NCBI RefSeq assembly: GCF_023169885.1
Contig: NZ_AP025516.1
Span: 1,426,001 to 1,490,000, forward strand
Length of the DNA: 64,000 bases
Direction: 5' to 3'
Source: Desulfofustis limnaeus
GTDB taxonomy: Bacteria > Desulfobacterota > Desulfobulbia > Desulfobulbales > Desulfocapsaceae
Shown: piece by piece, positions 15,815 through 46,594 of the stretch
Layout: each line of letters begins with the position of its first letter
How positions within the stretch are numbered: position 1 is the first letter of the stretch
Notes under the pieces: generated by a model
Seen by the model: only the letters and a program-made list of their open reading frames with translations
Told to the model about the DNA's origin: nothing
Databases searched by the model: none
Program-made: the position numbers and the translations under genes

Positions 15815-18436
15815 ATGCGCGGGATCATCAGGTTCGTCAAAGAGCTCTTTTCTCCTACCCGACCAGACCCGGTAGCGCAGAGCCCGGAGGAGCGTCGAGC
15901 CTCCTTTCGCAAACGGTACCGCCATTTCCGCAGCCTGCTTACGGCCAACAACAATGCGCTGCAGGCCATGGCCGAGCTGGAGAAGATGTACTACGGCTCG
16001 GAGAGCTACCGGATGGCCGCCATCCGCTCCAAGATCACTACCATCCTGGTCAACGTCTATAAGATGGTGACCAATCTGCAGGAGATGTCCTCCAATCGGT
16101 ATCGTGAGCTTTCCGAAATCCTCGAGAAACTGACCTCCCAGATCGAGGAAGTGGTAGATCGGAAGCCGGTCTACCCGGCCGGGCCGTACGTGCTCAATCT
16201 GTTTGATATCGGGGTTCAGGACCGAATCCAGGCCGGCGAGAAGATGGCTCATCTGGGGGAAGTCTCTCGCCTCGCCGGCATGTATGTGCCGCCCGGCTTC
16301 GTCGTAACCGCTACGGCGACCCGTTCGTTTCTCAACGAGGAACTGCTCACCGAGATCAATCGGAAGCTGCAGGTCAAGGACAGCGACGATCTGGCCTCTT
16401 TGTATCATACCTGTGAAGCGATTCAGAACCTGGTGCGGCAGACGCCGCTGCCCGCCGATCTTGAGGAATTGCTGCAGGTCTACTACGCCCGGTTGGAGCA
16501 GGACACCCGCCCCGGTTGCCGGGTGGCGCTGCGTTCCAGTGCCCTGGGCGAAGATGTTGCCGGCGTGTCCTTTGCCGGCTTGTATCGGACCGTTCTCGAT
16601 GTGGATCGGTCGTCGTTGGTGTCCGCCTACAAAGAGGTCATCGCGAGCAAATACGGGGCCAGGGCCATCGCCTACCGGCGCAAGCGCGGTTACCGTCACG
16701 AGGATATCGAGATGTGTGTCGGCTGCCTGGCCATGGTCGACGCTCTGATCAGCGGCGTCCTCTACACGCGTGATCCCTCCGACCAAGAAGCGGATGTGGT
16801 GCGGATCAACGCCGCCGCCGGGATTGCCCGGGGCGTGGTGGACGGGACCACCGCCGTCGATCTTTTCCTGGTCGGCCGGGACAAACCGTATCCCCTGGTG
16901 TACAGCGAAATAAACCGGGAACGGCAAATTTCGGCGGAGAGCGGGGCAGCCGCTCCGTCCTTGACCTACCAGCAGCTGCGTAAACTGGTTGAGAGCGCCC
17001 TGCGCCTCGAAGAGCATTTCGGCTGTCCGCAGGATATCGAATGGTCCTTCGATCACCAGGGCCGGCTCTACATCCTGCAGAGCCGACCGATGAAAACGGC
17101 CGAGCCGGTAACCGAACAGCCGCTCATCCAGGTCGACCAAGACGTCCCGCCATTGCTCTTCGGCGGGGTCTGTGCCGCGTCGGGTATCGGGGCCGGGATC
17201 GTGCATCGGGTCGATTCCCCGGAGGATATGCAGCGATTCCCGAAAGACGGTGTGCTGGTGCTCGATTATCCGCTGCCCGACTGGGCGCCGCTGGTAGGCC
17301 GGGCGGTGGCGGTGATCGCTCAGAAGGGAAGCGAGGCCGGCCACCTGGCGACCGTCTCCCGGGAGTTCGGCATTCCGGCTTTGTTTGGAGTGGCCGATGC
17401 CATGCAGGTTCTGGCCGATGGCCAGGAAGTTACCGTCAATGCCGGTGCTCGTGCCGTGTATCGGGGCATACGTGAGGATATCCTGAAGATGCGGACGGTG
17501 CGCCGGGAGTTGATGGCCGGCAGTCCGGTCCAACGGCTCCTCTCCGAGGCCCTGCAGTACATCACGCCGCTCAACCTCAACGATCCCGCCTCCACCAAGT
17601 TCAAGGCCTCCTGGTGTGAGACGCTGCATGACATCACCCGTTTCTGTCATGAGAAATCGGTGACCGAGATGTTCAATGCCGGTCAGCTCAACGGCTTCGA
17701 CAAGGCCTCGGCGAAACGACTGGTGGGCGATGTGCCCCTGGAGTGGTGGGTTATCGATCTGGCCGACGGCTTTCGGGAAGGAGTACCGGAGAATTCGCCA
17801 ACCGTTCGCATCGACGATATCGCCTCCCTGCCCATGCTCGCCATCTGGCAGGGCATCGAAGCGGTTCCCTGGGGTGGCCCGCCGCCGGTTTCGGCCCGGG
17901 GGTTCGGCTCGATCATCCTGCAGTCGACCATGCGTCCTGAGTTGGATCCATCCGTCCCCTCGGCGTTGACGGTGAAAAACTATTTTCTCATCTCACGCCA
18001 TTTCTGCAACCTCAGCGTCCGACTCGGCTACCATTACGCCATGATCGAGGCCTTTTTGAGCGACATGCTCACCGAGAGCTATGTCACCTTCCGCTTCAAG
18101 GGCGGGGCGGCCGATATGCGCCGCAAGGCGCTACGGGCCAGGCTTTTGTCCGAGGTGCTGAAGCATTATGGCTTCCGTATCGAATTGCAATCCGACGCCT
18201 TGCTGGCCCGGATCAAGAAGAAAGAGACGCCGTATCTGGAGAGCCGATTGAAGATCCTCGGCTATCTGACGGTCCACGCCCGGCAGATTGATATGGCCAT
18301 GGACCGTGAAACTGCAGTAAAACACTACCGGGAGAAGTTCCTGCAAGACATAGAGTCGATGCTGGCGGCAACCCCAACGCCACCGGTGACGACGGAGGTG
18401 GATCATGGTAACGAAACCGAAAGTGATGTTGGTTGA
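15815..18436 (+). CDS. PEP-synthase-like protein (PEP/pyruvate-binding and phosphohistidine domains)
   Basis: I place the start at ATG 15815 (873 residues), with GGAGC about 6 nt upstream; ATG 15734 adds 27 poorly structured residues. A helical region of about 130 residues is followed by a PPDK N-terminal ATP-grasp domain (about 145-445: GFVVTATATRSF, VALRSSALGED, QDIEWSFD). Next comes the mobile phosphohistidine domain (about 460-570) with GSEAGHLATVSREFGIPALFG. The last 290 residues do not resemble the PEP-binding TIM barrel, so this is not a normal PEP synthase. It may act in phosphotransfer control. The receiver gene at 18405 overlaps its 3' end by 32 bp. Confidence 0.8.
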   Translation: MRGIIRFVKELFSPTRPDPVAQSPEERRASFRKRYRHFRSLLTANNNALQAMAELEKMYYGSESYRMAAIRSKITTILVNVYKMVTNLQEMSSNRYRELSEILEKLTSQIEEVVDRKPVYPAGPYVLNLFDIGVQDRIQAGEKMAHLGEVSRLAGMYVPPGFVVTATATRSFLNEELLTEINRKLQVKDSDDLASLYHTCEAIQNLVRQTPLPADLEELLQVYYARLEQDTRPGCRVALRSSALGEDVAGVSFAGLYRTVLDVDRSSLVSAYKEVIASKYGARAIAYRRKRGYRHEDIEMCVGCLAMVDALISGVLYTRDPSDQEADVVRINAAAGIARGVVDGTTAVDLFLVGRDKPYPLVYSEINRERQISAESGAAAPSLTYQQLRKLVESALRLEEHFGCPQDIEWSFDHQGRLYILQSRPMKTAEPVTEQPLIQVDQDVPPLLFGGVCAASGIGAGIVHRVDSPEDMQRFPKDGVLVLDYPLPDWAPLVGRAVAVIAQKGSEAGHLATVSREFGIPALFGVADAMQVLADGQEVTVNAGARAVYRGIREDILKMRTVRRELMAGSPVQRLLSEALQYITPLNLNDPASTKFKASWCETLHDITRFCHEKSVTEMFNAGQLNGFDKASAKRLVGDVPLEWWVIDLADGFREGVPENSPTVRIDDIASLPMLAIWQGIEAVPWGGPPPVSARGFGSIILQSTMRPELDPSVPSALTVKNYFLISRHFCNLSVRLGYHYAMIEAFLSDMLTESYVTFRFKGGAADMRRKALRARLLSEVLKHYGFRIELQSDALLARIKKKETPYLESRLKILGYLTVHARQIDMAMDRETAVKHYREKFLQDIESMLAATPTPPVTTEVDHGNETESDVG

Positions 18437-18794
18437 TGACGAGCCGGAATTTCTCGAGGTGATGGCGAAGTTCATGAGACATCGCGGTGTTACATTGGAA
18501 ACCGCTGCCAATTGTTCCGAAGCCCTGTCCTGGCTGGCCCGAGACCGTTTCGATGTGGTGGTGATGGATGTGCGAATGCCGGGGATAGGCGGCCTGGAAT
18601 GCATGGATGAGATGAAATCGGTACAGCCCGGCCTGGAAGTGATCATCCTCACCGGCCACGCCTCGCTCAATTACGGCATCAGCGGGATGGAACGGGGGGC
18701 CTTTGATTACTGCCTGAAACCGGTCGATGCCGGCGAGCTCCTGGAAAAAGTCTTACTGGCCCGGGAGAAGGCCGCTGCCGGCCCGCACGGCTGA
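18405..18794 (+). CDS. single-domain response regulator
   Basis: The 129-residue receiver starts at ATG 18405, overlapping the preceding gene by 32 bp, which implies translational coupling. Features are VMLVDDEPEF, acceptor D55 in VVVMDVRMPGIGG, ILTGHAS, and LKPVDAGELL. No output domain. It closes the 13721-18794 transport and phosphotransfer unit and converges on the selenoprotein gene. The 6-bp gap between the two stop codons lies inside a small GCTGAG/CTCAGC hairpin. Confidence 0.9.
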   Translation: MVTKPKVMLVDDEPEFLEVMAKFMRHRGVTLETAANCSEALSWLARDRFDVVVMDVRMPGIGGLECMDEMKSVQPGLEVIILTGHASLNYGISGMERGAFDYCLKPVDAGELLEKVLLAREKAAAGPHG

Positions 18795-18799
18795 GCCAC

Positions 18800-19348
18800 T
18801 CAGCGAATCGAGCGTTCATAGGCGGCGATGATGTCCTGCAGCGGGGGGCGATCAGCCGGTCCGGCACCGACGAAATGGAAACGGATGATGCCGTCGGCAT
18901 CGATAAGAAGATCACCACCGCGCTGCCAGATATCGCCCTCCGAGGGCGTTGGAACCTTGCCCCGCAGGAGTTCCCGAAGATAGACCAGCCACGTCCGGGG
19001 CCCCCAGATATCCCAGAAGCCAGCCTTTTGCAGCCCATAGGCACGATAGAGCCTGCGCTGGGGATCGACCAGCAACGGCCAGTCCGCCTCCGTCTTGCCC
19101 AAAAAGATCTGGGCCTGCGGCGGCGGTTCAAAGGTCACCGCGACCACCTCGATGCCCCTCTGTTCCAGTTCCTCCCGTTGTTGCCACAACTGTGACAGGT
19201 GCCGACGTCAGGGCAGTCAGCCCAGGTGCCGGAGGAAGACCAGCAGCAACCAACGGCCTTGGTACTGCTCGAAACTATGGGGCCGGCCAGAGGCGTCTTT
19301 CAGCACGAATGGTACGGCGGGCGAGCCGATCAGGTCGTTGTGTTTCAT
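18800..19348 (-). CDS. selL: SelL-type selenoprotein: peroxiredoxin-like with UxxU redox motif
   Basis: Read from ATG 19348 the frame is continuous to 18800 except for TGA at 19219-19217 and TGA at 19210-19208. They fall exactly on the two Cys positions of the Prx-like family motif: VFLRHLG-U-LP-U-RRHLSQL. Downstream family features continue in frame (GIEVVAVTFE, WPLLVDPQRRLYRAYGL, GGDLLIDADGIIRFHFVG). With both TGAs read as Sec the product is 182 residues. The SelL family is known to carry a UxxU motif with two selenocysteines and a single bacterial SECIS. A hairpin follows the second TGA. Two independent nonsense mutations at just these codons would be an odd coincidence. An alternative start is ATG 19381. 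Confidence 0.85.
19183..19196 (-). promoter_or_regulatory. candidate bacterial SECIS hairpin
   Basis: On the minus strand GTCAC (19196-19192), loop AGTT and GTGGC (19187-19183) form a stem with one G-U pair, extendable by a U-A pair. The loop contains GU, as bacterial SECIS loops usually do. The loop starts 16 nt after the second TGA and 25 nt after the first, within the usual range. One hairpin could serve both codons. Confidence 0.6.
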
Positions 19349-19699
19349 TTCCTGAGGTTTCGGTCCGTATGTTTCGTTCATCTGGATAAAACGTATTTTT
19401 CTGGGGGTGAGGGTAAAAGAGCCTTCGGCTCCCCGATTTTTCACTCTAGCGACCGTCAGCATCTTTGGCAATCGTTTGCTGTCTGGGCGGCGACGAGCTG
19501 TGTTGGGAAGAAAATTCCTTTTCCTGGCGATTCTCATAGTCTACACTCAAGGCAGTGGATACTCCGTTGCTTCCCGTCGCCAGCGTCCAGACCTTGCCGG
19601 GCGAGGAAGGGATTGGATCGATGCGTTGCCCGATCGGTGCCTTCATGGCACCGCCGTCGCTGTCAGCGGTACCTGAAAACTCAAAAGAAAAGGCATCCC
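19349..19699. other. divergent intergenic region between selL and the CsaA-like gene
   Basis: No gene is supported here. A GAGCC-TTC-GGCTC hairpin at 19419-19431 is followed on the minus strand by TTTTA and on the plus strand by a T-rich run. It could be a terminator or attenuator in the selL leader. No clear promoter was identified. Confidence 0.4.
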
Positions 19700-20059
19700 A
19701 TGGCCAAAGAGATAAAACCGGTCGTGCCATACGACGACACCTTTGCCAAGCTAGATATACGGGTAGGGCGGGTAGTCGAGGTGGAACGGGAAACGGCTAC
19801 CCCCAAGCCCACCTACAAAATGGTCGTCGATTTTGGCGCATACGGCAAAAAAACCAGTTATGGCCGGTTCACCAATCATCCGCTTGATGAAGTGAAAGGG
19901 AGATTGGTTCTGGGGGTTCTGAATTTCGGCCCGAAGCAGGTGGGTGAGGTCGTCTCCGAGGTCCTGATTCTCGGTGTACAATTTCCCAAGGCAGATAGTG
20001 GTGAAGCGACCTTTGTTGCCCCCCTCCGGGAGGCTAAGATCGGCAGTAAAATGTTTTAA
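19700..20059 (+). CDS. CsaA-like tRNA-binding-domain protein
   Basis: The 119-residue protein starts at ATG 19700 (weak AAAAGG about 8 nt upstream); the long in-frame extension back to 19199 is antisense to selL and rejected. It is a single OB-fold tRNA-binding domain: FAKLDIRVGRVVEVE at the N-terminus, YKMVVDFGAYGKKTSYGRFT, VLGVLNFGPKQVGEVVSEVL, and a C-terminal EAKIGSKMF in place of the usual GxxL end. CsaA proteins bind tRNA or act as export chaperones. There is no operon partner. Confidence 0.85.
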   Translation: MAKEIKPVVPYDDTFAKLDIRVGRVVEVERETATPKPTYKMVVDFGAYGKKTSYGRFTNHPLDEVKGRLVLGVLNFGPKQVGEVVSEVLILGVQFPKADSGEATFVAPLREAKIGSKMF

Positions 20060-28011: not shown

Positions 28012-31000
28012 ATGAAACCTGCCACCGAAACCACCTTGCCCGACGACCCGGAAGAACTGAAGCGGATTATCGTCCACCTGCAACAGGAGCAGGACCGCCT
28101 GCAACAAGAACAGGGCCGCCTGCAGCAGGAACGGAACCGCCTGGAACGGGAGCAGGACCGCTACGAGCAGGAAATCAACCTGCTCCACGAGCGCATCCGG
28201 CTGCTGTATGGCAAATTGTTCGGCAAGAAGAGCGAGAAGCACCCCGCTCGCGAGGACAGCCCGCAGCTGCCGCTGTTCGATATGCCGGAGCCGGCCGAGA
28301 TCGAGCCGGAACGCGAAACAGTCGAAGTGCCGTCCCACACCCGGCAGAAGCGCGGCCGCAAGCCGCTGCCAGTGGAGCTGCCGCGCGTGGAAGTGGTTCA
28401 TGATATCGACGAAGCGGAGAAGACCTGCGGCTGCGGCGCCCGGTTGGACAAGATCGGCGAGGACGTCTCCGAGAAGCTCGATCTCATCCCGGCGATCATC
28501 CGGGTCATCAGACATATCCGGCCCAAGTACGCCTGCAAACAGTGCGAAGGGCTGGAGACCGAGGGCGGCACGGTCAAGATCGCACCGCCCCCGCCGCAGA
28601 TCATTGACAAAGGAATTGCCACCGCCGGCCTGCTGGCCCATATCCTTACCGCCAAGTTCTGCGACGCGCTGCCGTTTTACCGACAGGAGAAGCAGTTCGA
28701 CCGGCTGGGCGCCGATGTGGGGCGGGCCACCATGTGCAACTGGGCGATGAAGGCGGCCGAGGCCTGTCAGCCGGTGCTGACGTTATTACACCGGGAGATC
28801 CGCTCGGGACCGTTGATCAACATCGACGAGACGACGGTGCAGGTGTTGGATGAACCGGGGCGCGCCGCGACGACGAAATCATATATGTGGGTCTGTCGTG
28901 GCGGTCCAACCGGAACACCGGGCATCCGCTACCATTACGCACCGAGCCGTTCTTCCACAGTGGCCCGGGAGTTGCTCGATGGTTATGCCGGGATCGTGCA
29001 GACCGACGGTTATAGTGGCTATGATTATCTCGACCACGATCCGGCGATCCTCCATGCCGGTTGCCTGGCCCATGTGCGGCGGAAGTTCGACGAGGCAAGA
29101 CGAGGCAGCGGCAAACCATCCGGGAAAACGGGGAGCGCCGACGTGGCCCTGAGTTATATCGGCAAGCTCTATCGGATCGAATCCGAGGCCAAGCGAAAAG
29201 GGCTGACTTCCGAAGAGCTGCGGACGCTGCGCCAGGAGCGGGCTAAACCGATCTTCGATGACTTCCGTACCTGGCTGCACAAGAAAGCCACCCAGGTGGT
29301 GCCGAAGAGCCTGCTCGGTGTGGCGGTTCATTATGCACTGAGCCAGTGGGACCGGTTGGTGGTGTATCTGGAGCATGGTGAGATGACACCGGATAACAAT
29401 CAGGCTGAAAATGCCATCCGGCCGTTCGTGGTGGGGAGGAAAAACTGGTTGTGTGTGTCACGAAGGAGGTTTTATGAAAGAAGATTAGCATAAAACATCC
29501 ATGTTCCAAGTTGGATGAAGGATGGCCCTTCGGTCAGGGTTTACAGGAGCACTGACCAAACGACCCGAAAGCTGCTATTTCCTCAGGGATTTGGTGGTGA
29601 GCGTTTCGGGAAAAGGCGGACATACTACCGTCACGTGCGATCTGGGAAGTCGAACGAAAGTGAACTGTTCGAAGAAGCATCGAAATCTTAGACGATGTCA
29701 AAAGGGGCTTGTATAGCCGTGCCCTGAAGAGTGCAGAGGAAACCTGTTTATTGTCTGCACGGCATCCGGTGTTAAGGCAGCGAGAGCCCAGGTCAGGCCA
29801 ATTTGGGGAACGTGAGAACCTGTTCTCAGCACGCATTGGAGGACAGGGACGGACATGCCCGTAGTAGTGATGAACTGATTTTAATGATCAGGGAGCGAAG
29901 GGGTATGGGGCAACGAATTGCACCGTTCACAACTCGGAAGAGGATGATGGCGTGGGGCAAGGAAAAGCATTTGCAATACCAAAAGAACTGGTCTGGAAGT
30001 CCTACCTTGAAGTTCGCAAGAACCGGGGTGCTGCTGGATGCGATGGGCAGACCATAACGCAGTTTGATGAAAATCGAGACGGAAACCTCTATAAGATCTG
30101 GAACCGCCTGAGTTCCGGCTCCTATTTTCCACCGCCGGTTCGCGAGAAGCGGATCCCGAAAGGAGATGGAAAAGAGCGAGTGCTCGGAATACCCACGGTA
30201 TCAGATCGAATCGCCCAAGGTGCGGTTAAGCTTTTTGTCGAGGAACGACTCGATCCTCTATTTCATGAAGACTCGTATGGATATCGACCCGGAAAATCAG
30301 CACACCAGGCGCTTGAGATATGTGCCCGGCGATGTTGGAGGTACAGCTGGGTATTGGAGGTGGACATTAGGACATTCTTTGATAGCGTAAGGCATGATTT
30401 AATCATCAAGGCGTTAGAACATCACCATATGCCGAGATGGGTCATTTTGTATTGTCGGAGATGGCTTGAGGCACCAATGCAAGGCTCGGTGGTCGATAGT
30501 GACTTGCGGAAACGAGAAGTAGGCACACCTCAAGGTGGTGTAATATCGCCACTATTGGCGAATCTATTTCTTCATTACGCATTTGATCAGTGGATGGGTC
30601 GTGAATTTCGCTTTGTACCTTTTGAAAGATATGCTGATGATATAGTAATTCATTGTAGTCTGATGAAGGATGCGAGCCATATGAGAGCGCTTGTAAGAAA
30701 ACGTTTTCAGGAAGTAGGGCTCGAAATAAACGAAGAGAAATCAAAGATCGTCTACATCGATACGTTCAAGCGCTTCAATGTTGAAACCTGTTTCACGTTT
30801 CTCGGATACGATTTCAAGGTAAGAACCCTGAAGAATTACAAAGGGGAAGTCTACCGCAAATGCATGCCGGGGGCGTCAAAGAAAGCGTTGCGTCAGATCA
30901 CTCAGACCATAAAAGGGTGGCGGATTCATCGATCGACAGTGGATAACGCAGAAACGATAGCGAAACGGTACAATACAATTCTCCGTGGTTGGATCAACTA

Positions 31001-31482
31001 CTACGGGAAGTTCTGGTATCGAAACTTTGGCTATCATGTGTGGCGCGTATTTCAGTCGAGACTGGTTAAGTGGATACGTTCGAAGTATCGAATCCCAGGA
31101 AAGAAGGCTGAAAGAAAATTGGCGATGATGAGAAAGGAAAATCCGCGGTTGTTTGCTCATTGGTATTTATTACGTGCAGCAAATGCGTGTCCAAGAGCCG
31201 TATGACAGGAGACTGTCACGTACGGTTCTGTGAGCAACCAGGGGGTGAAACTCCTCCTGGTTGACTCGACTTGCTGGGACCCCGAAAGGCGCCCGGGCCA
31301 GTGCCGATCTTTACAGTCTGATCGAGACGGCCAAGGCGAACGGGTTGGAACCGTACCGGTATCTTCGCTATCTGTTCGAGAAACTGCCGTTTGCTCGGAG
31401 CACGGAAGATTATCAGGCGCTACTGCCGATGCGGCTTCGTCCGGAAGATGTGGAACTGAAGAATATTGCCAGAGGGGTTTAA
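28012..31482 (+). CDS. tnpC: IS66 transposase TnpC, split by a group II intron
   Basis: Exons 28012-29452 and 31271-31482 join to 551 codons with no frame change, rebuilding NWLFAGTPKGA across the splice. The N-terminus carries a coiled coil of repeated LQQEQ units (residues about 20-70), then a zinc-binding segment (CGCG...CKQC). The DDE catalytic core follows (LINIDETTVQV, IVQTDGYSGYDYL, NNQAENAIRPFVVG). Without splicing, translation would stop about 14 codons into the intron at 29488. Function therefore depends on intron excision from RNA. Confidence 0.93.
29453..31270 (+). mobile_element. group II intron inside tnpC
   Basis: The intron begins GTGTGTCACG and ends GACTCGAC. Both limits are fixed by restoration of the tnpC frame. 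Domain V is seen at 31195-31228 (GAGCCGTATG...CGTACGGTTC). A domain VI-type stem with a GTGAAAC bulge region follows to the 3' end. Bases 29453-29951 hold the structured 5' domains and no gene; 29952-31205 encodes the reverse transcriptase. Confidence 0.92.
29952..31205 (+). CDS. group II intron reverse transcriptase/maturase
   Basis: The 417-residue protein uses a GTG start at 29952 (no better in-frame start was found). RT motifs are in order: GAAGCDGQTI, RVLGIPTVSDRIAQGAV, SYGYRPGKSAHQAL, VLEVDIRTFFDSV, GTPQGGVISPLLANLFLHYA, the catalytic FERYADDIVIH, and FLGYDF. The C-terminal part (LRGWINYYGKFWYR) is the maturase-type segment. No HNH endonuclease domain is present. It would promote splicing and retrohoming of its host intron. 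Confidence 0.93.
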   Translation: MGQGKAFAIPKELVWKSYLEVRKNRGAAGCDGQTITQFDENRDGNLYKIWNRLSSGSYFPPPVREKRIPKGDGKERVLGIPTVSDRIAQGAVKLFVEERLDPLFHEDSYGYRPGKSAHQALEICARRCWRYSWVLEVDIRTFFDSVRHDLIIKALEHHHMPRWVILYCRRWLEAPMQGSVVDSDLRKREVGTPQGGVISPLLANLFLHYAFDQWMGREFRFVPFERYADDIVIHCSLMKDASHMRALVRKRFQEVGLEINEEKSKIVYIDTFKRFNVETCFTFLGYDFKVRTLKNYKGEVYRKCMPGASKKALRQITQTIKGWRIHRSTVDNAETIAKRYNTILRGWINYYGKFWYRNFGYHVWRVFQSRLVKWIRSKYRIPGKKAERKLAMMRKENPRLFAHWYLLRAANACPRAV

Positions 31483-31707
31483 TTGACGGTTACGTTTTCA
31501 CCGTGCTCACGATATGATTCGCGGAGCAGTATCTGGGTGTAGACCTTGCCGCCTTGGCGGGATTTGACTCGTTCGATATACATAATGGCCACTAATTACC
31601 ATATATGTATATTTATATCAATATATTAATCTTATATTAATGGCTACGACAAAGAACCACAAAACCGCATTTTTCGACGTATAATCAGCGACATAGTGAA
31701 ATTGTAA

Positions 31708-32445
31708 TCCGGAACATCCGTTACAATACCTACTATTTTAGAGATTTATTTAGGTAATCCTCCACATGTGGGTTTACTGTTCCATGAGTTTGCACACCTT
31801 TTAGTCAATGCGGCTGACATGTATCATGGGTGGCCACCTGAATCAGAATATGTTCCCTTTACAGTAGGCCCGTTCTCGCTTATGTCGACAGGAATGCCAG
31901 CCAATTTAGACCCATTTCATCGGTTGAAGTATGGCTGGTTGAGACATCGTTTCGCATCTCGTTCAGGGCACTATTCATTGCATGCCGCTGTAACGCATGG
32001 TGAGGCATTGGTGCTTATGGATCCACACCACAGTAAAAGGGAATATTTTCTTCTCGAGAACAGGTGGGACGCTAATAACACATGCGATGCTAACTTACCG
32101 GACCGAGGTCTTGCGGTTTGGCACATTATCGAGGACAGTGCGATTTTTAATGCTTCTCCGACTCCTGCTGGGACTGATCCAGCTTACTGGAACAGTACTG
32201 TAGATCAATGGAGTAGGCGTGGAGTGCGATTGATTAGACCATTGGTAACTCCTCCTATCACTAATAACAACCAAGCGTTGTGGGATGGAAGTCAGCCTGC
32301 CACAGGTTATGATTTGCTGTCCAATGATCCAATTCCACAACATTCAGAACTACGTTGGGCCGGCGGTAACCAAAGCGGGTTTTCGGTACGGAATATTTCA
32401 CCGTCTGCTAATATTGTCGAGTTTGATCTCGATGTTCCTTGGTAG
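31708..32445 (+). pseudogene. 5'-truncated M6-like zinc metalloprotease
   Basis: The frame is open from 31708 to 32445 (GTG at 31768 is the first start-like codon). It contains GLLFHEFAHLLVNAADMY, an HExxH zinc motif, then GPFSLMSTG, REYFLLENRW and RGLAVWHIIED, the order seen in immune-inhibitor-A (M6) like peptidases. A complete protein would have a propeptide, a signal peptide and a longer catalytic N-terminus. These are missing, and an in-frame stop lies just before 31708. The IS1634-type element ends about 105 bp upstream, so loss of the 5' part by that insertion is likely. Confidence 0.7.
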
Positions 32446-32477
32446 AATAATCACATCCAATCGGGCATCACAAAGCG

Positions 32478-32552
32478 CTGCTCTTCGTCACTCTTCTTGC
32501 TTCGGGTTTGATCCTCTATAATATCAAATCTACACGAGATGATGAGGAGCCG
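32478..32552 (-). repeat. degenerate ISL3-end mini-element
   Basis: On the minus strand it starts GGCTCCTCATCATCTCGTG and ends GACGAAGAGC, matching both termini of the ISL3 copies at 38295 and elsewhere. The internal GATTTGAT...ATCAAA palindrome of the ISL3 left end is also recognisable. No target duplication was found, so it is an old copy or remnant. Confidence 0.5.
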
Positions 32553-32578
32553 GCAAATTTGGACAGGATGGATAGAAA

Positions 32579-32608
32579 AAAGAGTCAGCCGGATTCGGCT
32601 GACTCTTT
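32579..32608 (+). terminator. intrinsic-terminator-type stem at the intron target
   Basis: A perfect 13-bp stem (32579-32591 and 32596-32608) with a 4-nt loop ends in CTTT. It lies 8 bp before the 5' end of the class-C-like intron, which is the known target preference of such introns. It may have terminated the M6-like protease gene. Confidence 0.8.
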
Positions 32609-32616
32609 GCCATTTC

Positions 32617-34502
<1,886 letters not shown>

Positions 34503-38294: not shown

Positions 38295-39628
38295 GGCTCC
38301 TCGTCATTTCGTGTGGATTTGATATCATAGGATCAAATCCACACGAAATAGCGAGGGAAACAGATGAACGGTAACGATATCATAGCATTAGGTCTTGGTC
38401 TTGAGAAACCGTGGGAGATCACCGGCCAGTCTCTGAACACCGAGTGTACGCCCCATGAACTGCGCATCACGTTAGCAGCTCCCCGGGGCAGCAGCTTTCC
38501 CTGTCCCGACTGCGGAGCGATGTGCAAGGCCCATGACTTCAAGGAAATGACCTGGCGTCATCTCAACTTCTTTCAACACCATTGCTACATCACCGCCGCC
38601 GTTCCACGGGTCAACTGCAAAGACCACGGGGTAAAACGGATCACCGTCCCCTGGGCGCGCACGGGCAGCAAGTTCACCTTGCTCTTCGAACAAGCCGGCC
38701 TCATGCTGGTACGAGAGATGCCGGTATTGGCTGCGGCCCGGATCATGGAGATTCCCGATAAAACGTTGTGGCGCATCGTCCTTCATTACGTGACCGCCGG
38801 TCTTGCCCAGCTTGACCTGAGCGAACTCAAAGCCGTCGGCCTCGATGAAACTTCGGCAAAGAAACGGCATAACTACGTGACCGTTTTCATCGATCTGGAC
38901 CGTAGGAAAGAGCCTGTCGTGTTTGCGGTACCCGGCAAAGGCCAGGATGTGATTCGCCAGTTCAAACAGTTTCTCACGACACAGGGCGGTGCTGCCGGCA
39001 ACATCAAAGAAGTAGCCTGCGACATGTCGAAGCCCTTCTTGTCCGGTATCAAGCAAAGCTTTCCACGAGCCCAGGTCACGGTTGACTGGTTCCATGTGGT
39101 GCAGACTTTCACCAAGGCGGTCAACAAGGTCCGTGTCCTCGAGGCACGGAAGAAACAGCTACCCCGAACCACCCGCTGGGCGGTGCTGAAGAATGAAGAG
39201 TCAACCGGTCTCAGCGAGCAAGAACGGCAAGCCCTGGCAGAGCTCAACGCCATGGATTTCTTCACAGCTATTGCCTGGCGGGTCAAGGAGCGTCTCCGCT
39301 GGGTACGCAAAGCATCGACAGCGCAAGCGGCCAAATGGCGCCTGAGCAACTTTTTGTTGTGCATGGCGGAAGCCAACCTGACGAAATCACCACTGTTACG
39401 ACCGGTCATCGCGGCTATCGAAACGGTGATCAGGCATCGCCGTGCCATTGAGTCTCGGTGGGAATCCGGCCATAGCACCGCTCGCCTGGAGGGTTTGAAC
39501 AGCATTTTCCAGGCAGCCAAAGCACGGGCCAGAGGGTATCGGAATCCACAGACATTTATCAGCATGATTTACCTGCTTGCCTCACCGGTCGGTAATCTGC
39601 TCAAATCCACTTGAAACGACGAAGAGCC
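38295..39628 (+). mobile_element. ISL3-family element, copy A
   Basis: 1334 bp, starting GGCTCCTCGTC and ending GACGAAGAGCC, with AAAATTTC duplicated at 38287-38294 and 39629-39636. A long palindrome lies just inside the left end. It is identical in encoded protein to copies B, C and D. Confidence 0.95.
38364..39614 (+). CDS. ISL3-family transposase (copy A)
   Basis: The 416-residue transposase has an N-terminal zinc ribbon (CPDCGAMCKAHD, then VNCKDHG), a helix-turn-helix-like segment (ARIMEIPDKTLWRIV), and the DDE core: VGLDETSAKKRHNYV, CDMSKPFLSGI with VTVDWFHVVQ, and the C-terminal ARLEGLNSIFQAAKARARGY. Length and motifs are normal for ISL3. It lies inside the IS4 transposase gene. Confidence 0.95.
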   Translation: MNGNDIIALGLGLEKPWEITGQSLNTECTPHELRITLAAPRGSSFPCPDCGAMCKAHDFKEMTWRHLNFFQHHCYITAAVPRVNCKDHGVKRITVPWARTGSKFTLLFEQAGLMLVREMPVLAAARIMEIPDKTLWRIVLHYVTAGLAQLDLSELKAVGLDETSAKKRHNYVTVFIDLDRRKEPVVFAVPGKGQDVIRQFKQFLTTQGGAAGNIKEVACDMSKPFLSGIKQSFPRAQVTVDWFHVVQTFTKAVNKVRVLEARKKQLPRTTRWAVLKNEESTGLSEQERQALAELNAMDFFTAIAWRVKERLRWVRKASTAQAAKWRLSNFLLCMAEANLTKSPLLRPVIAAIETVIRHRRAIESRWESGHSTARLEGLNSIFQAAKARARGYRNPQTFISMIYLLASPVGNLLKST

Positions 39629-46480: not shown

Positions 46481-46594
46481 TAAAAATCTGGCAAATTATT
46501 CAAAAAAATCAGCGAAAAATCTCTGAAAATATATTAATATCAACACGTTGGTTATGATATCACCATTTCATTCCCCCTTTTCAGAGATAGCGCC

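Follow-up and report, generated by a model that had tools for sequence, protein, structure and literature searches.

Active sites built on two selenocysteines are rare, and we know of no settled view on the advantage of a diselenide over a selenenylsulfide. The source paper for SelL, covering fish, invertebrates and marine bacteria, is reportedly Shchedrina et al. 2007. In the available parts of the papers at hand, SelL is a two-Sec protein of fish, invertebrates and marine bacteria for which a diselenide bond is reported (PMC2397514, PMC3473315), and the portion at hand of PMC2398784 terms it Prx-like. The bacterial Prx-like thiol:disulfide oxidoreductase of PF00578 is tabulated with both UxxC and UxxU motifs in the available text of two articles (PMC13188914, PMC9312934), and the table in the first of these gives it one to two Sec residues. 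The GOS survey, in the part of it available, describes a Prx-like 2 family that is UxxC with several UxxU sequences, and regards it as very distantly homologous to Prx and only slightly similar to pfam04592 (PMC2398784). UxxU variants are also given for SelenoW, which is usually CxxU, in the accessible portion of PMC7539508. UxxU proteins of the SelL and Prx-like kinds are already described, as the original prediction had stated, since SelL is reported from marine bacteria and UxxU is among the motifs of the listed Prx-like proteins (available parts of PMC2397514, PMC13188914 and PMC9312934). The present gene adds a member to this known kind, and its interest lies in the one-step origin proposed for it.

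The gene considered here lies in the window (the whole stretch of 64,000 nucleotides that was analysed), together with the following features:

19348..18803, minus strand: SelL-related selenoprotein gene of 182 codons, with stop TGA at 18802..18800 (from frame reading and NF040769)
19217..19219, minus strand: first Sec codon, TGA (U44); TGA in all 61 distinct relatives
19208..19210, minus strand: second Sec codon, TGA (U47); TGC (50) or TGT (11) in the relatives
19181..19198, minus strand: SECIS-like hairpin with 6 bp TGTCAC/GTGGCA (19197..19182) and loop AGTT (19191..19188) (from covariation and folding)
18405..18794, plus strand: convergent neighbour, a response-regulator-like ORF of 129 aa, named by eye
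19199..20059, plus strand: opposite-strand ORF whose 3′ part (from about 19700) is by eye like a CsaA-type tRNA-binding protein

We read this gene as encoding a Prx-like SelL-related oxidoreductase in which both active-site chalcogens would be Sec (U44-L-P-U47), with one SECIS serving both UGA codons, and we put the probability of this reading at roughly 0.7. The evidence in hand consists of the sequence, the family, the motif, a covarying hairpin, its spacing, the predicted fold and the presence of selB, selC and selD; Sec insertion at both codons and diselenide chemistry are what we infer.

The claim of a SelL-type family was borne out by the NCBIfam model NF040769 (SelL-related redox protein), which matches residues 11-176 at 191.5 bits against a curated cut-off of 120, and all 38 aligned rows match the same model at E <= 0.001. 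The relatives under this model have one active-site Sec, whereas the window protein has two and no Cys. The likeness to SelL itself is that of a two-Sec protein whose range, in the available parts of the sources, includes marine bacteria; however, the relatives here are all UxxC, the candidate SECIS is a hairpin of the bacterial kind within the coding sequence, and the NCBIfam name is the sole link between animal SelL and the window family. With the Prx-like thiol:disulfide oxidoreductase the gene shares the tabulated motif and the Pfam family (AhpC-TSA, PF00578, 70.4 bits; AhpC-TSA_2 scores 64.2 bits). The GOS Prx-like 2 family is alike in being, in the part of that survey available, a bacterial UxxC Prx-like family with UxxU exceptions, but PF04592 is not among the five Pfam families listed for the window protein.

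The gene and its relatives

Read with TGA as Sec, the frame is MKHNDL...FLRHLGULPURRHLSQL...ERSIR, with the two TGA codons as residues 44 and 47, and it runs through the gene without a frameshift. Both TGAs (19219..19217 and 19210..19208) are followed by C, as had been claimed. Under table 11 the gene is broken into a 106-aa ORF that ends at the first TGA and a 129-aa ORF with a TTG start; the anticipated split is confirmed, and it is a caution for annotation that standard gene calling cuts the gene in two. The 5′ part of the opposite-strand ORF (19199..20059) is an upstream extension of its frame and overlaps the Sec gene in antisense. A search of the genome itself for paralogues returned the gene as the sole match among the matches listed, and when flanking ORFs (mostly those within 1.5 kb) were compared all against all, the window fell in none of the 14 most recurrent groups.

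Of the 257 genomes of the class, 168 gave a match of some kind at E <= 0.001, counting remote Prx families, and further searches at E <= 1e-20 gave 8/395 (a draw from the phylum), 6/24, 22/277 and 6/26, in sets that overlap. A contig scan gave one relative out of 37 stretches. The 61 distinct relatives of the same phylum that were counted comprise 33 from the class search (among the matches listed), five from the 395 draw, two from the 24 set and 21 from the 277 set. The 33 are 29 loci and four stretches, two of the latter with broken or interrupted frames. Dropped before the count were G206 (a fragment without the motif), G191 and G203 (remnants in which ULPC is followed by a deletion), remote UxFC homologues, other Prx-like matches, L023 (whose protein is identical to that of L043) and refetched copies. 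Full-length sequences (38 of the 61) were used for the invariant columns and 40 for covariation, and the use of the 21 from the 277-genome set was confined to the motif, loop, hairpin and codon. The 63-row table referred to below holds the 61 relatives, the window and one gene that occurs twice (L107/L117).

The motif is ULPC in 60 of these relatives and ULLC in one, and no second UxxU was found among the 61 distinct relatives of the same phylum. The codon at the second active-site position is TGC in 50 and TGT in 11; it is TGA in the window alone. The original prediction had placed the TGAs on both Cys positions of the family motif. Both do lie in the active-site columns, but the first column is Sec in 61/61 and only the second is Cys. 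The window gene is of the SelL type in having UxxU from two in-frame UGA codons (U44, U47), in one assembly only, whereas the norm of the lineage is UxxC with one Sec (61/61), to which UxxU is the exception. Each counted relative has at least one Cys, and the translated window protein has none. In alignment the gene looks like a UxxC selenoprotein in which TGA has taken the place of the Cys codon at the second position, and UxxU is here probably an exception derived from UxxC and not the rule of the family.

Two candidates for a second UxxU were rejected. G122 (L084) reads ULPC and carries its extra TGA elsewhere, at a site that is Gly in relatives (GDUNI), and the second TGA of G879 is its stop codon. 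Within the same class there is also a remote UxxC group (L091-L099). Six of its members (L094-L099) read RHFGUxFC or RHFGUILC, with RQQVAEL or RQQVADL next, and the other three (L091-L093) read UAFC, UTFC and UPFC. The genus mate G117 has the remote UxxC type and, among the matches listed, no close SelL type. In G666 (L120), reading through past the SelL stop enters a peroxiredoxin-like frame with an active-site TGA (TPVURNE), perhaps a second selenoprotein directly downstream.

The claim that the family sequence continues intact on either side of the TGAs held well. The window retains all 21 columns that show no variation among the 38 full-length relatives and 19 of the 23 further columns conserved at >= 90% (four are changed), and a leave-one-out comparison of columns at 95% gave 30/30. 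Both TGAs occupy invariant active-site columns. The nearest relative of the window protein shows 55% identity. In a tree of 39 rows with a midpoint root, the window branch is 0.8 long, against a median of 0.19 for the end branches, and lies among UxxC forms; the forks near it have supports of 91/87 and 93/91. Since this long branch sits among UxxC forms, a change from UxxC to UxxU is the likely direction, not a proven one, being read from a single branch without a close relative.

A hairpin in range of both UGA codons

As given in the available part of a 2026 review, a bacterial SECIS lies 16-37 nt from the UGA, has a loop of 3-9 nt on a stem of 4-16 bp, carries a G in the first two loop positions with U next, and has an energy of <= -7.5 kcal/mol (PMC13188914). 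In the window the distance to the start of the hairpin loop is 25 nt from UGA1 and 16 nt from UGA2, so that both spacings are inside the published range, and the G and then U of its loop fit as well (PMC13188914, same part). The seventh, outermost pair that many relatives have (19198 with 19181) is unpaired in the window.

When sequences were aligned without gaps from the first TGA, 41 of them (40 distinct) had a common position for a 7-bp hairpin with a 4-nt loop. Paired cells made up 94.3%, against 72.7% after shuffling; cells changed on both sides numbered 57 against 19.2; and the covariation score was 0.583 against 0.205 (in each case 0/500 shuffles as high). Registers slid by 1-3 columns reached at most 69.3% paired and a score of 0.187. 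There was no clear excess in the number of pairs with any two-sided change (5 against 4.7 shuffled, 386/500 as high) or in pair types (14 against 11.7, 25/500 as high). These shuffles leave relatedness in, and the hairpin sits inside coding sequence. Arms as diverse as CTCTCGC/GCGGGAG, CTGGTAC/GTACCAG and ATCACGC/GCGTGAT surround the same loop, and codon constraint alone would be hard put to explain arms so different around one loop. The loop is AGTT in 62/63 rows and GGTT in one, and its Leu codon is TTG in 63/63 rows, compared with 113/813 of the other Leu codons in 41 genes.

In isolated folding the window hairpin is marginal. Its own energy is -6.8 kcal/mol, against the published limit of -7.5. 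Folding of the 45 nt after UGA1 gives it as the minimum-energy structure, with pair probabilities of 0.40-0.49; in 50 nt after UGA1 its pair probability is about 0.15 and in 60 nt 0.01, and it is not the minimum-energy fold of either. When folding was started after UGA2 the probability was about 0.02, and the hairpin was the minimum-energy fold in no stretch tried. Over the 63 rows, 50-nt folds gave a median of 0.98, with nine rows below 0.5, the window among them. The hairpin that had been proposed is there, 16 nt after the second TGA, with loop AGUU and conserved by homology, but its stability when folded alone is borderline. We regard this one conserved and covarying hairpin, in range of both UGAs, as a candidate shared SECIS.

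In the mechanism we propose, SelB and Sec-tRNA would read both UGAs in succession from this one hairpin (25 nt and 16 nt), and a single TGC to TGA change would have turned UxxC into UxxU with no new SECIS. One change would suffice because in the UxxC family the resolving-Cys codon is already at 16 nt from the hairpin. A single substitution separates ten of the 182 codons from TGA (counting codon 47 as Cys and excluding U44), and codon 47 is the sole one of these in the 16-37 nt SECIS range. We lean, at slightly better than even odds, to the view that a deltaproteobacterial UxxC lineage independently turned its resolving Cys into Sec by one base, giving an all-selenium site with no Cys left. 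In the available parts of the literature, mostly outside subscription journals, we found no account of a UxxC-family SECIS that is already in range of the second codon. If the proposal is true, the 25/16 nt geometry puts UxxC members one mutation from UxxU, and the rarity of UxxU would reflect selection on function or cost and not decoding. UGA read-through reaches only 1-3% of that of common amino acids in the available part of one review (PMC8659212), and two UGA readings in a row should reduce yield. The UxxC relatives with TGC are one base away and have the same SECIS, so that UxxC could be compared cleanly with UxxU in a direct test; the same set allows a direct test of one SECIS serving two UGAs.

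Sequencing error, decay and the selenocysteine machinery

The main rival is an error of base calling or assembly in an ordinary UxxC gene whose codon 47 is truly TGC, which we consider unlikely. Cys stands in this column in 61/61 relatives, TGC is one base from TGA, and UxxU is known from one assembly (0/61 relatives); moreover, the single extra TGA of G122, at its Gly site, is probably itself either a recent mutation or an error. To create a TGA, however, an error would have to strike this one of the 10 one-step codons, a chance of about one in ten if all are equal. Interrupted coding stretches are also few in the window. A codon-usage scan for stops in coding-like stretches gave 14 candidates, eight of them shadows of another frame, and the SelL TGAs rank first and third among the six non-shadow candidates, which is a weak control.

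Less probable again, and improbable to our minds, is a recent nonsense mutation, in which UGA44 is read as Sec, translation stops at UGA47 and the gene is a pseudogene in the making. TGA47 is unique to this genome and sits on the long branch (0.8), and copies in the family do decay, with internal deletions in G191 and G203 (L089, L090), a broken frame in G215 and the fragment G206. These decayed copies show deletions or broken frames, though, and not intact genes with TGA at codon 47, while the window gene has no other damage and keeps its 21 invariant residues and the 6-pair hairpin. At 16 nt from the loop, moreover, the UGA has a spacing inside the published range, and the hairpin should therefore favour its recoding.

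A search for the Sec machinery had been set beforehand as a test that could refute the original prediction. It showed selB, selC and two selD genes to be present, but selA was not found and its expected place reads N. The tRNA-Sec (selC) scores 72.5 bits against a cut-off of 47 and has anticodon UCA, and selB scores 364.7 bits against 242.25. The two selD genes differ (L018 and L019; 369.7 and 365.5 bits), and each has one in-frame TGA at the SelD Sec site, in the contexts SKTCGUAAK and KGAGUASK. TIGR00474 gave no selA match in this genome. A match to PF03841 was rejected as selA, being below its cut-off (19.4 against 22.8 bits) in an ORF that by eye probably reads as a PLP enzyme of Cys/Met metabolism.

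Among genomes of the same family, 72/93 match selA, 70 of them over the cut-off and including one other genome of the genus. Of the three selA regions taken, two also contain an rRNA operon; the third is that of the genus mate, whose contig stops about 480 bases beyond selA. Many selA genes of the family begin within a few hundred bases of the first base of their contig, as a gene next to a repeat would be expected to do. This genome does have the gene that comes after selA in the genus mate (48% identity), and the side of it on which synteny places selA reads N in this assembly. Since the expected place of selA reads N, its missing match is no proof of absence. That Sec synthesis was lost with selA, leaving the SelL-related gene a relic, is therefore very improbable: the empty TIGR00474 search and the sub-threshold PF03841 match speak for it, but selB, selC and both Sec-containing selD genes are intact, and selA is widespread in the family, genus mate included, with its place here reading N.

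Predicted fold and chemistry

For an oxidoreductase with Sec at both active-site positions, the reading that we prefer, the model structure is suitable. AlphaFold2 (38 sequences) gave a pLDDT of 92.4 and a pTM of 0.89, with a strand at 33-38, the motif at 44-47 and a helix at 45-56. The predicted fold is thioredoxin/peroxiredoxin-like, the motif lying at the N-terminus of helix 1 after the central strand. A fold search returned 699 PDB matches at E <= 0.001, the best being human prostamide/PGF synthase (PDB 9usa, the C44S/C47S mutant; TM 0.72/0.80, 23% identity), followed by Bcp and AhpE, with AhpC and ResA among the best 50. The prostamide/PGF synthase has the same active-site spacing (C44/C47), and the title of 9usa implies native Cys at both sites. 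A PDB search by sequence gave general relatives of Prx/ResA type.

The catalytic motif of true peroxiredoxins is PxxxT/SxxC(P). The window protein lacks a PxxxT/SxxC motif and reads FLRHLGULPU, with an invariant RH in its place. Since the peroxiredoxin motif is missing, a thiol/selenol-disulfide oxidoreductase is favoured, and judged by its motif the product is more likely such an enzyme than a peroxidase. If both UGAs are read, a protein without Cys could form no internal redox bond other than a U44-U47 diselenide. The enzyme would then cycle between the diselenol form and this intramolecular diselenide, with the U44-U47 pair at the N-terminus of helix 1 in a thioredoxin fold. We infer a cytosolic location, as no signal-like N-terminus was recognised by eye.

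Elsewhere in the window, five group II intron matches lie close together at 29517-34502 on the plus strand (Rfam RF01999, RF00029 twice, RF02001 and RF01998). Long ORFs (29874-31205 and 33010-34431) stand between them, and they probably represent two or more adjacent introns. Farther on, at 38352-58410, ORFs of 420 aa recur (at 38352, 45161, 50339 and 51702), as do ORFs of 356 aa (at 46538, 49175 and 57340), each set with the same length and coding score, which suggests repeated insertion sequences and a mobile region.
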